Below, piece by piece: positions 16,652-19,909 of a stretch of DNA of 64,000 nucleotides. How positions within the stretch are numbered: the first letter of the stretch is position 1; every line of letters starts with the position of its first letter. The notes beneath the pieces were generated by a model that had not been told where the DNA came from, ran no database searches, and saw nothing but the letters and a program-made list of their open reading frames with translations. A program made the translations under genes and the position numbers. This DNA comes from Undibacterium paludis (GTDB lineage: Bacteria; Pseudomonadota; Gammaproteobacteria; Burkholderiales; Burkholderiaceae_D), in contig NZ_JAKZHX010000001.1 of assembly GCF_022568815.1 (NCBI RefSeq), positions 124,001 to 188,000 of the forward strand, given 5' to 3'.

Positions 16652-17074
16652 TCATGCATTGACGATCAGCTTGCCGCTCATTCCCTCATGTCCATCACCG
16701 CAGAAGTTATCACATAGAAAGTCATACTCGCCCGCCTTGTCGAGATTCAATTGAATATTGATCACCTTGCCCGGCACCAGGTCCATACGCAAATTAAACT
16801 CTGGCAGGTTGAAACCATGCGTAAAATCCAGGGCGCTGAAAGCCAGCACGATACTTTCACCGACCCGGGCTTCTATGCGACTGGGTTCATAGGAAAACTT
16901 TTTCGCCGTTATTGGTATCACCCGTGGCTTTGTGCGTGAGGCCAACGTCTTTTTTGCCGCCCCTTCTGCCATGGCAAGTTCGGCAAATACCAGGCTTGCG
17001 CCGGCCCCCAGTAATGACAAGGACAGGTCCGTACAGAAGAGACGTCTTGATTGGTTCGTTTTCATGTCTGTCAT
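16652..17074 (-). CDS. secreted free-standing CuA-type cupredoxin
   Basis: A 140-residue cupredoxin that looks like the CuA domain of cytochrome oxidase subunit II without the membrane helices. The predicted copper ligands are H86 in DFTHGFNLPEF and C121, C125, H129 and M132 in CDNFCGDGHEGM. The usual glutamate between the two cysteines is N123. The N-terminus has a twin-arginine-like SRRLF followed by a hydrophobic stretch and AMA, so export by Tat or Sec is likely. The ATG overlaps the stop of the phosphoesterase gene (ATGA). It is the last gene of the ECF-controlled operon and probably accepts or donates electrons in the periplasm. Confidence 0.85.
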   Translation of the reverse strand: MTDMKTNQSRRLFCTDLSLSLLGAGASLVFAELAMAEGAAKKTLASRTKPRVIPITAKKFSYEPSRIEARVGESIVLAFSALDFTHGFNLPEFNLRMDLVPGKVINIQLNLDKAGEYDFLCDNFCGDGHEGMSGKLIVNA

Positions 17075-17943
17075 GCCTTTGCTACGGGAAATTCCACCAT
17101 GCTCGATGTCTTGCCATCGACATCAATTTCCCTGAAGCCCAGTCCCTGGAAGGGTTTATCAGCATTCCATGGCAAAGGTGTACGCTTGTCTTGCGAACCG
17201 GGCGCAGGCAGGGGGAAAATCAGGGATTTTGCCGCATGATGGGGAATATGGCCACTCATATGATGATGCTCCTGATGGATGTGACCATAAAACACGGTGA
17301 CATTGGTATAGGGCATCAGCAAGGCAATTGCCTGCGCGCCGTCACGTGTAGCCCAGTCCCATTTGGGTGCCAGATCAAACAGGGGCCTGTGCGTCAGCAC
17401 GACAATGGGTGCGTCTTTCGCCTGTTTTGCCAGATCGGCTTCCAGCCAGGCCAGTTGCTTTTCACCCAGACGAGCGCCTGAGTCGGATACATTATCAAGA
17501 GCAATGAAATGCACACCTTTATGGTCAAAGGCATAGCTGGTCACGCCAAAATATTCTTTAAATGCGGCACCGGCATCGAGGGATGCATCATGTTCGCCCG
17601 GCAAGAAATGTATATTTCTGACTTTCAGGCCACCTATGATTTCTTTAAATTCTGCCATGCGCCGGCGGCGTTCGACCGGGTCATCGGTCGTGTGCGTCAA
17701 GTCACCGGTAAAAACGATAAAGTCAGGCTGTAGTGGCAGGGCATTGACACTCTCGACCGCCTTGCGCAAGGTATTCTTCGCTTCAGGATTGGCGTCGCCA
17801 GCATAGCCCCAATGCACGTCAGAAAGCTGAACGAAATAAAAGTCAGATCCGGTATATGCCTGCACTGAATTGTACAGGCCAGACATGAACACGACGCCAC
17901 CACCAACGGCAGCAAGTTTGAAAAAATTTCTGCGGTCCATCAT
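17071..17943 (-). CDS. Tat-exported calcineurin-like metallophosphoesterase
   Basis: A 290-residue phosphoesterase with a twin-arginine signal (DRRNFFKL, hydrophobic 11-22). The metal-binding motifs are in order: D42-x-H44, GD81 in FTGDLTH, G-E-H118-D, H185 in LTHRP and the GH221-x-H223 motif. The usual GNHD motif is GEHD here, so the asparagine ligand is replaced by glutamate. A histidine-rich stretch (HQEHHHMSGHIPHH) follows the last motif and may bind extra metal. Middle gene of a cytochrome c, phosphoesterase, cupredoxin operon; the substrate is unknown. Confidence 0.88.
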   Translation of the reverse strand: MMDRRNFFKLAAVGGGVVFMSGLYNSVQAYTGSDFYFVQLSDVHWGYAGDANPEAKNTLRKAVESVNALPLQPDFIVFTGDLTHTTDDPVERRRRMAEFKEIIGGLKVRNIHFLPGEHDASLDAGAAFKEYFGVTSYAFDHKGVHFIALDNVSDSGARLGEKQLAWLEADLAKQAKDAPIVVLTHRPLFDLAPKWDWATRDGAQAIALLMPYTNVTVFYGHIHQEHHHMSGHIPHHAAKSLIFPLPAPGSQDKRTPLPWNADKPFQGLGFREIDVDGKTSSMVEFPVAKA

Positions 17944-18016: not shown

Positions 18017-18394
18017 CTAGTGAGATGTACTTGTGATTGTCTTTAAATAGGCAATCAGATCAGCACGCTCCTGGGCAGTCGGAACCGAGACACCCATTTT
18101 TTGACCCGGCACCAGTTTTTCGGGATTGCGTAGCCAGGCATCGAGCAACTTCTCATTCCAGACAAAGCCCGCTTTAGTCAGTGCAGTGGAATAGACATAA
18201 CCATCGACACTGGCTGCTTTGCGTCCAAATACTCCGGCATGGGCAGGGCCCACACCATTGAATTGTGCAGAATGACAAGAAGCACACCTGGCCTGGTAAA
18301 GTATCCTGCCAAGCTGGGGGTCGCCGGCAGCCTGTGCCGCCTGCTGCACTACCAGGCAAACTGTCAGTATCAGTAAATGTATTCGACTATTCAT
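18017..18394 (-). CDS. secreted class I cytochrome c
   Basis: A 125-residue cytochrome with a signal peptide (residues 1-23, cleavage after AQA). One heme site is seen, C37-A-S-C40-H41, and the sixth ligand is probably M100 in GQKMGVS. The fold markers GxGP and LIAYLKT are those of mitochondrial-type class I cytochromes c. The ATG at 18394 gives the signal peptide; the frame is open further upstream without one. It is the first gene of the leftward operon and has its own ECF-type promoter about 75 bases upstream. Expected role is periplasmic electron transfer, perhaps to the CuA protein. Confidence 0.9.
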   Translation of the reverse strand: MNSRIHLLILTVCLVVQQAAQAAGDPQLGRILYQARCASCHSAQFNGVGPAHAGVFGRKAASVDGYVYSTALTKAGFVWNEKLLDAWLRNPEKLVPGQKMGVSVPTAQERADLIAYLKTITSTSH

Positions 18395-18469: not shown

Positions 18470-18498
18470 CAATACTCGTCACAGGGCTGGTTTATTCC
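18470..18498 (-). promoter_or_regulatory. ECF sigma factor-type promoter for the cytochrome c operon
   Basis: On the minus strand GGAATAAA (18498-18491), 13 bases, then GAGTATTG (18477-18470). This is the same arrangement as the promoter reading the other way, with 16 bases between GGAAT and GAGT, the usual ECF spacing. The predicted transcript start is about 70 bases before the cytochrome ATG. Confidence 0.7.
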
Positions 18499-18540
18499 GC
18501 AAACCTGTGAAATATTTTTCATTTTTTTTATACTTTCCCG

Positions 18541-18569
18541 GGAATAAATCCACCAGATCTTGAGTCTTG
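18541..18569 (+). promoter_or_regulatory. ECF sigma factor-type promoter for the sigma/anti-sigma operon
   Basis: GGAATAAA (18541-18548), 13 bases, then GAGTCTTG (18562-18569). It shares 8 of 8 bases in the -35 element and GAGT-N-TTG in the -10 element with the divergent promoter, while the spacer between them is mostly different. It lies about 20 bases before the sigma factor ATG, pointing to autoregulation. Confidence 0.7.
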
Positions 18570-18588
18570 ATAGCAAGGACCAATACAA

Positions 18589-19167
18589 ATGGGTGTTTTT
18601 TTGAAAGATGCGCTGACTGCCAAGGAATTTGAACACCTCGTACTGGCACATCTGGACTCGGCATATAATCTGGCGCGATGGCTTACGCGCAATGATCACG
18701 ATGCGCAAGACCTGGTGCAAAATGCCTACCTGAAGGCGTTCAGGTTTCGTGACAGTTATCGCGGTGGCGATGCACGCGTGTGGCTCATGACCATCATCCG
18801 CAATACCTATTACACCAGTCTGCGGGACGACAAGGCCATGGCAGCCGATGTCGGCTTTGATGAAGAAATACATGGCGCGCTTGAAACGGAAAACGCCGAA
18901 TCACACTATACCTACAGCAAAGATCCCGCCAGGGCGGCAGAAGATGGTGATCTGAAAAAAAACATCAATCGCGCGCTGGAGAAATTGCCCCAGGTTTTCA
19001 GGGAAGTATTGATACTCAAAGAAATGGATGATTTCTCTTACAAGGAAATCGCCGAAGTTACAAACATACCGATAGGCACGGTGATGTCACGGCTGGCAAG
19101 GGCAAGAAAGTTGTTGCTGGGATTCTTAAAAAATGAACAGCAAGGGGATGAGCATGGAATGTCATGA
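18589..19167 (+). CDS. ECF-family RNA polymerase sigma factor
   Basis: A 192-residue sigma-70 factor of the extracytoplasmic function group. Region 2 (about 15-80) has the core-binding and -10 recognition pattern DAQDLVQNAYLKAFRF and VWLMTIIRN. Region 4 (about 130-180) has LPQVFREVLILKEMDDFSYKEIAEVTNIPIGTVMSRLARAR. Between them is an acidic linker. AAGGA precedes the ATG. It overlaps the anti-sigma gene by 14 bases. Its promoter and that of the divergent cytochrome operon match each other, so it probably drives both. Confidence 0.95.
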   Translation: MGVFLKDALTAKEFEHLVLAHLDSAYNLARWLTRNDHDAQDLVQNAYLKAFRFRDSYRGGDARVWLMTIIRNTYYTSLRDDKAMAADVGFDEEIHGALETENAESHYTYSKDPARAAEDGDLKKNINRALEKLPQVFREVLILKEMDDFSYKEIAEVTNIPIGTVMSRLARARKLLLGFLKNEQQGDEHGMS

Positions 19168-19909
19168 AATTCAGCAATTGATGTCTTCCTATCTTGATCA
19201 GGAACTCAATACAGAGCAGGCCCTGCAAGCTGGTGAACATATCGCCGGCTGTACCGCCTGCATGGCCGCATTGGAGCAAATGGAAGCTTTGCAGGTAAAT
19301 GTACGTACACATGCCAGCCATTATGCCGCACCAACCGGTCTGCGCTCGCGGATACTGGCCAATGTGGCACAAAAACGCCCGTCAAAATTGCGCAACTGGC
19401 CGTGGGCATGGATCAATCTGGGACTGGCAGGCTTAAGTGCGGCGGCATTTGCTGCAACCCTGGTACTCTACCTGGGGCAGCCTTCTCCTTCACAGACCTT
19501 TGATGATGAGGTGTTGAGCAGTCATTTTCGCTCACTGGCTCCCGGACATCTGCTTGATGTGGTCTCGTCAGACCAGCATACGGTCAAACCCTGGTATGCC
19601 GGCAAGCTCGATTTTTCTCCAGCCGTCGTCGACCTGTCGGTGCAGGGCTACCCCTTGCTGGGTGGACGGATCGATTATCTGGCCGGGCGCCCTGTCGCAG
19701 CCATGGCTTATCAGCGTCACAAGCACATCGTGAATCTGTATTTATTTCCTGACGCGACCGGCAAACCCAACGATATCAGGCTTGACACCAGACGCGGCTA
19801 TCAGCTTGCACAATGGAACCAGGCAGGCATGCGCCACATTGCCGTATCGGACATGAATGGTGATGAGCTGAAGCAGTTTGTCAGTCTCTGGCAACTGGCC
19901 GCAAAATAA
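19154..19909 (+). CDS. zinc-binding transmembrane anti-sigma factor
   Basis: A ~251-residue anti-sigma factor. The N-terminal zinc anti-sigma domain has C3/H4 and the H29-x3-C33-x2-C36 motif (HIAGCTAC). One membrane helix follows (about 85-107), then a ~140-residue periplasmic domain. Such proteins hold the cognate ECF sigma at the membrane and release it on a redox or envelope signal. AAGGGG six bases upstream favours 19154 over in-frame ATGs at 19133 and 19148. The start lies inside the end of the sigma gene, so translation is coupled. The periplasmic part resembles those of ChrR-unrelated, RseA-like sensors only in layout. Confidence 0.9.
   Translation: MECHEIQQLMSSYLDQELNTEQALQAGEHIAGCTACMAALEQMEALQVNVRTHASHYAAPTGLRSRILANVAQKRPSKLRNWPWAWINLGLAGLSAAAFAATLVLYLGQPSPSQTFDDEVLSSHFRSLAPGHLLDVVSSDQHTVKPWYAGKLDFSPAVVDLSVQGYPLLGGRIDYLAGRPVAAMAYQRHKHIVNLYLFPDATGKPNDIRLDTRRGYQLAQWNQAGMRHIAVSDMNGDELKQFVSLWQLAAK

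Follow-up and report, generated by a model that had tools for sequence, protein, structure and literature searches.

Described systems that bear comparison with the locus analyzed here include the ECF sigma factors of group ECF26, for which the available part of PMC6180224 gives a group consensus of GGAATA at -35 and GT at -10. According to the accessible portions of the source reports, the S. meliloti members RpoE1 and RpoE4 are each encoded as a sigma gene followed by that of a membrane anti-sigma factor, are autoregulated and control a small regulon, and RpoE4 drives a redox operon that includes a cytochrome c-like protein and a pseudoazurin (PMC6180224, PMC3511301). In the sections of PMC6527743 at hand, SigE of Starkeya novella is an ECF located beside the sulfite-oxidising redox genes of SorAB, with GGAAT at -35, CGTC at -10 and sulfite as the inducer; SigE targets SorAB without inducing its own promoter. 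For a betaproteobacterial group of sulfite-oxidase ECFs, the same sections report no such consensus.

In the window (i.e., the whole 64 kb stretch of Undibacterium paludis DNA that was analyzed), a sigma gene is likewise followed by that of a putative membrane anti-sigma factor, and the adjacent operon is also redox-like. The sigma factor (192 residues; positions 18589 to 19167, plus strand) contains sigma regions 2 and 4 (PF04542 and PF08281) and only these, within about 190 residues, as expected of an ECF sigma factor; its best NCBIfam match, NF009185, falls below the cut-off. The overlapping anti-sigma gene (258 residues; 19133 to 19909, plus strand) encodes a zf-HC2 domain with HxxxCxxC, one predicted membrane helix at about residues 92-114 and a beta-rich C-terminal domain, the first two being the features by which the cognate anti-sigma factor of an ECF is recognized. 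The HxxxCxxC motif is present in 34 of 52 homologous frames. The helix is taken to lie in the membrane, with the C-terminal domain in the periplasm. In the structural model, helices make up the N-terminal domain, a membrane helix probably follows, and the beta-rich C-terminal domain contains residues that are strongly conserved. A fold search with this model returned weak matches, with RseB first (E 0.012) and none at 0.001 or below, and the modeled C-terminal domain would appear to resemble the RseB/MucB domain weakly.

The operon on the opposite side is encoded on the minus strand. It comprises a small c-type cytochrome with a signal-peptide-like start (18017 to 18394), a metallophosphoesterase (17071 to 17943) and a stand-alone CuA-type cupredoxin (16652 to 17074; CDNFCGDGHEGM), whose gene overlaps that of the phosphoesterase by 4 bases. 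The start of the cytochrome was placed at 18394, and not at the upstream TTG at 18472, because the former agrees with the start of its homologue in U. hunanense (L096). The phosphoesterase begins with Tat-like RRNFF, which we take to be a Tat motif, and carries GEHD in place of GNHD. The proteins of this operon look like periplasmic redox proteins; a prolyl oligopeptidase gene is also among the neighbors of the sigma gene.

The gap between the two operons, 194 bases from the ATG of the cytochrome (18394) to that of the sigma factor (18589), contains two sites that are of ECF type by sequence. The site directed toward the sigma/anti-sigma operon occupies positions 18541 to 18569 of the plus strand, with the -35 octamer GGAATAAA at 18541-18548 and the -10 element GAGTCTTG at 18562-18569. 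The site directed toward the cytochrome c/phosphoesterase/CuA operon occupies 18470 to 18498 of the minus strand, with the same octamer at 18498-18491 and the -10 element GAGTATTG at 18477-18470. The two octamers are identical and face outward. An earlier inspection of the letters (the sequence-only reading) had described a mirrored pair of GGAATAAA-N13-GAGT-N-TTG in a gap of this length, with 16 bases between GGAAT and GAGT, and each of these points proved correct: one exact copy is found on each strand, back to back, and 100 dinucleotide-shuffled versions of the window yielded no match. Genome-wide (6.5 Mb), there are 23 occurrences of GGAAT-N16-GAGT versus 11 of the reversed-pattern control, and the octamer GGAATAAA is present in just two of these 23 matches, namely the window pair; with 15 spacer bases in place of 16, as a control of the spacing, the corresponding numbers are 15 and 8. 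The combination GGAATAAA-N15-GT(A/C)TT occurs exactly twice in the whole genome, both times in this gap. The mirrored sites are real sequence features, far beyond chance expectation.

A close homologue of the sigma factor was found in one of the 35 other Undibacterium genomes tested, that of U. hunanense (G004; 78% identity), and the remaining matches within the genus had E values of 4e-18 or weaker. U. hunanense keeps both promoters. In the alignment with the window, identity extends to all 30 recognition bases (the two -35 octamers, the two GAGT elements and the three bases that follow each), versus 14 of the 26 spacer bases (6 of 13 and 8 of 13), 20 of the 42 bases that separate the two -35 elements, and 31 of 76 in the left leader, gaps being counted as changes. 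The short sigma leader is kept at 17 of 20 positions. The proposal that selection acts on just the contacted bases is thus borne out by the contrast between recognition bases and spacers, but is too narrow with respect to the sigma leader: conservation centers on the recognition bases, and the sigma leader is kept besides.

The comparison was extended to 53 regions upstream of sigma homologues, mostly from Burkholderiales, together with Gemmatimonadota, one member of the Acidobacteriota and one of the Verrucomicrobiota. These regions represent 30 order-wide loci (from 37 matching genomes) and 21 of 34 further loci (L096-L116), two of which hold a second sigma homologue; the 13 loci omitted from the 34 had 29-33% identity. 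Exclusive of the window and U. hunanense, 40 of 51 regions had GGAATA-N17-GT directed toward the sigma gene, 30 had it directed away and 26 had it in both directions; following the removal of one near-duplicate, the numbers were 39, 29 and 25 of 50. Other spacings (13-16 and 18-21) gave 0-4 matches in the 51 regions, and shuffled upstream regions averaged 0.17 and 0.12 matches. The comparison among relatives that had been suggested along with the sequence-only reading thus yielded both sites at a single favored spacing. Elsewhere in the same loci, the site was found in 15 of 1354 strand-windows, some of which may be real sites of other genes. GGAATA and GT were fixed by the search pattern while the remaining bases were free, such that, within this evidence, just the spacing, strand, position and co-occurrence are independent of the pattern. 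The usual -10 element across the relatives is CGGTATT. Of the GAGT motif originally proposed, GT is common to the relatives, while GAGT itself is the Undibacterium form. Seven plasmid-borne homologues were kept outside these counts; five have the site toward the sigma gene and two have it in the opposite direction, and the homologue borne on a Janthinobacterium plasmid carries GAGTCTT, as in the window. Among the plasmid records inspected for gene context, three, as well as pSymA, had no features annotated at the places in question.

The identical, outward-facing octamers could also be viewed as one dyad operator for a dimeric regulator, rather than as parts of two promoters. However, in the 28 loci that have both sites, the -35 elements are separated by anything from 5 to 159 bases, whereas the distance from -35 to GT is fixed, and the -10 bases are conserved along with the -35 element. 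A single operator of fixed geometry is ruled out by this variable separation, and a dyad operator of any kind is considered extremely improbable. A further alternative, that one promoter of the pair is active and the other is a relic, draws on the uneven occurrence of the sites among the 51 relatives: the strict minus site is missing in 21 and the strict plus site in 11. Nevertheless, both sites retain every recognition base in U. hunanense, where the spacers diverge, and of the 30 loci, counting the window and U. hunanense, in which a phosphoesterase or cytochrome gene is divergent, 27 have the plus site, 23 the minus site and 21 both, which renders a relic highly unlikely. These absences also speak against the divergent-promoter reading, as do seven sigma genes that have neither site (L077, L093, L103, L106, L109, L113 and L113b). 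The preferred reading remains that of two divergent promoters.

In four of the Gemmatimonadota loci (L108, L114, L115 and L116), the opposing -35 elements start just 5 bases apart, and the two promoters could therefore hardly be occupied at once.

The co-occurrence of the sites with the sigma gene was examined in 399 genomes of the order, in which presence of the sigma gene was defined by an E value of at most 1e-24. The pattern GGGAATAAA-N15-GT(A/C)TT was found in 14 of 37 sigma-bearing genomes, versus 13 of 362 genomes lacking the sigma gene (one-sided Fisher p = 2.4e-9), a test that is partly circular, as some of the loci tested had also served to shape the pattern. The reversed control pattern gave 10 sites in the 399 genomes, none of them in a sigma-bearing genome. 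Among the sites in sigma-bearing genomes, 12 of 19 are located at the sigma or phosphoesterase locus; in one of these genomes (G414, L245), the phosphoesterase, CuA and sigma genes are arranged in one direction, and the phosphoesterase match is preceded by the site at a distance of about 36 bases. Sites off the locus were found in 6 of 37 sigma-bearing genomes versus 13 of 362 (p = 0.005, uncorrected for genome size), and other species may therefore have extra targets.

This co-occurrence bears on the question of which sigma factor would read the sites. The genome encodes 11 ECF-like matches, i.e., the local sigma factor and ten others, so that crosstalk is possible, and the available parts of the source reports describe promoters shared by RpoE1 and RpoE4 of S. 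meliloti (PMC6180224, PMC6527743, PMC3511301). It might thus be that the sites, though ECF promoters, depend chiefly on one of the ten other ECFs, and that the local sigma factor has a minor or overlapping role. Against this stands the order-wide association of the sites with the sigma gene, as well as the finding that strict sites are at background level in the genus outside the two sigma-bearing genomes (17 sites in 41 Undibacterium genomes, in 34 of which the absence of the sigma gene was tested, versus 17 reversed-control sites in 43). Control mainly by another ECF is therefore judged very unlikely, and reading by the local sigma factor is retained.

Several of the order-wide GGGAATAAA sites adjoin other ECF genes. 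At L250 (G236, contig C150, 43251-43329), a perfect mirrored pair with CGTCTT as the -10 elements separates a DsrE-family gene from the gene of a distant ECF (31% identity), and the same divergent design thus serves other ECFs. The sites at L258 (G296, C139) and L251 (G078) are adjacent to ECF genes of 31-35% identity and probably represent additional promoters of this general type.

It had also been expected that the motif would reveal a regulon genome-wide. This expectation failed: 73 loci of the U. paludis genome, which together contain every match of GGAAT-N16-GAGT and of the two patterns given next, were inspected for their surroundings (some hold the same site, and the window pair is among them), and, judged against reversed controls, no convincing targets emerged beyond the pair. 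GGAATAA-N16-GT gave 33 matches in the genome versus 43 for its reversed control, and GGAATA-N(16-18)-GT(A/C)TT gave 24 versus 7. The latter excess was rejected as a signal of a wider regulon, being unspecific, as several sigma-less Undibacterium genomes are similar in this respect. A reading frame of 200 residues or more covers the site in 49 of the 73 loci. At ten of the others, a frame of 100 residues or more is located on the same strand within 250 bases downstream (L019, L022, L029, L030, L169, L176, L184, L194, L200 and L268), and two of these, L194 and L200, contain the GT(A/C)TT element. None of the ten carries GGAATAAA-N15-GT(A/C)TT, and inspection by eye of the U. hunanense matches listed disclosed no counterparts of them; they are not claimed as targets, although they may be weak ones. 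Within this genome, the regulon thus looks private. The available text of PMC6180224 similarly states that most of the S. meliloti ECFs control few genes.

Taken together, the two sites are, with high confidence, a divergent pair of promoters belonging to the adjacent ECF sigma factor, which would thereby control both its own expression and that of the cytochrome c/phosphoesterase/CuA operon. The original prediction that the sigma factor drives itself and the redox operon finds support in the footprinting of 53 regions, the single spacing, the variable -35 separation and the co-occurrence with the sigma gene, all of which point to this arrangement at the level of sequence. We infer that the sites are in use and that they are read by the local sigma factor rather than by another ECF, and likewise the start sites given below. 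In the proposed circuit, the membrane anti-sigma factor would release the sigma factor, and RNA polymerase carrying the latter would read GGAATAAA at -35 and (G)AGT(A/C)TT at -10 on both strands. Rightward transcription of the sigma/anti-sigma operon would constitute positive feedback together with its own brake, and leftward transcription would yield the cytochrome c - phosphoesterase - CuA operon.

The predicted transcripts would start at about 18575-18576 (plus strand) and about 18464-18463 (minus strand), with leaders of about 14 and 70 bases, respectively, and the plus transcript would begin right at the AAGGA ribosome-binding site. These positions follow the S. meliloti promoters, in which, as given in the accessible part of PMC6180224, transcription of rpoE1 and rpoE4 starts 10 bases past GT and that of sorT, whose spacer is one base shorter, 11 bases past it; the start was taken as the last printed base, on the strength of the lower-case ends and the footnote of the table. 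By this analogy, starts are expected 10-11 bases past GT, instead of the 6-9 bases past GAGT initially suggested.

The most likely guess with regard to the signal would be redox conditions or reactive sulfur at the periplasm, for three reasons. The target proteins have the appearance of periplasmic redox proteins. DsrE and SoxY genes adjoin some of the related ECFs that have the same promoters: in L078, L081, L084, L085 and L088, which contain sigma homologues but no phosphoesterase, DsrE-like proteins are encoded across the promoter region (PF02635 was confirmed in L078, L081, L085 and L088, and DsrE was judged by eye in L084), and L088 also contains SoxY. Finally, RpoE1 and RpoE4 of S. meliloti respond to sulfite, according to the portions of the reports at hand (PMC3511301, PMC6527743).

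Divergent autoregulated ECF promoters represent ordinary regulatory logic, here arranged around little-studied genes, and the GEHD phosphoesterase is of greater interest than the promoters. In the alignment, GEHD of the window enzyme occupies the place of GNHD in Rv0805, the Asn of which is presumably the metal ligand Asn97. All 27 aligned phosphoesterases have the Glu, and GEHD is present in 32 of 33 homologous frames, the remaining one having GEND. The phosphoesterase gene often adjoins a CuA gene, and CxxxCxxxHxxM is kept in 27 of 29 matched CuA frames. Altered metal chemistry is possible for this enzyme. A broader proposal, which is speculative and rather unlikely, is that the ECF switch is widespread and private to a periplasmic redox unit in which the GEHD metallophosphoesterase would work together with the stand-alone CuA protein and cytochrome c. 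The unit would then have a redox-controlled metal centre or carry out oxidative rather than purely hydrolytic chemistry, possibly on reactive sulfur compounds. The phosphoesterase frame of L091 contains an internal stop codon.

A search of the open-licence literature produced no paper on the gene cluster of the window and nothing that looked on topic in tying the phosphoesterase, the cupredoxin or GEHD to sigma factors. The cluster is not described in the available parts of the work on Arcobacter ECFs (PMC3445524) or on Bradyrhizobium EcfQ/EcfF (PMC3420878), and a word search of the accessible text found none of the sought words in PMC8103513 and just "motif" in PMC3817407. For an ECF system of many Burkholderiales and a few members of other phyla, the present analysis provides a well-supported motif for the promoters and a regulon of two operons, in which one reporter could test both the signal and the role of the GEHD phosphoesterase/CuA/cytochrome unit.

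In terms of protein sequence, the window sigma factor is closest among solved structures to SigH of Mycobacterium (5zx2, E 7.2e-25), which we take to be a member of group ECF12, and it also matches E. coli RpoE (E 2.1e-17). The SigH-type anti-sigma factor is a soluble zinc redox switch, whereas the anti-sigma factor of the window has a predicted membrane helix. The match to the ECF26 member RpoE6 of S. meliloti (31% identity, E 2.9e-17) came from another database, such that its E value is only roughly comparable with those for SigH and RpoE. The sigma protein is not assigned to ECF26 here, as it is no closer to RpoE6, the one ECF26 member compared, than to other groups; in the sigma tree, the three reference rows are on long branches. 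EcfR6, the anti-sigma factor of RpoE6, matched the profile of the window anti-sigma factor only weakly and in the N-terminal part (probability 50). The lipoprotein or serine protease gene that adjoins rpoE1/rpoE6-type sigma genes is absent beside the window sigma gene, a feature that the available part of PMC6180224 presents as optional in ECF26.

At the level of the promoters, the window sites fit the ECF26 consensus of GGAATA at -35 and GT at -10. The rpoE1 and rpoE4 promoters of S. meliloti, as printed in the accessible part of PMC6180224, have GGAATA-N17-GT as here, and that of rpoE1 consists of GGAATAAA followed by GTCTT. The shorter spacer of the sorT promoter, and the consensus missing from the betaproteobacterial sulfite-oxidase group, count against the reading of the window sites. 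The enzyme in S. meliloti is the sulfite oxidase SorT, whereas that in the window is a metallophosphoesterase. In our judgment, the type of promoter was already known from the ECF26 consensus, and the sigma system described here is a newly seen instance of its use.
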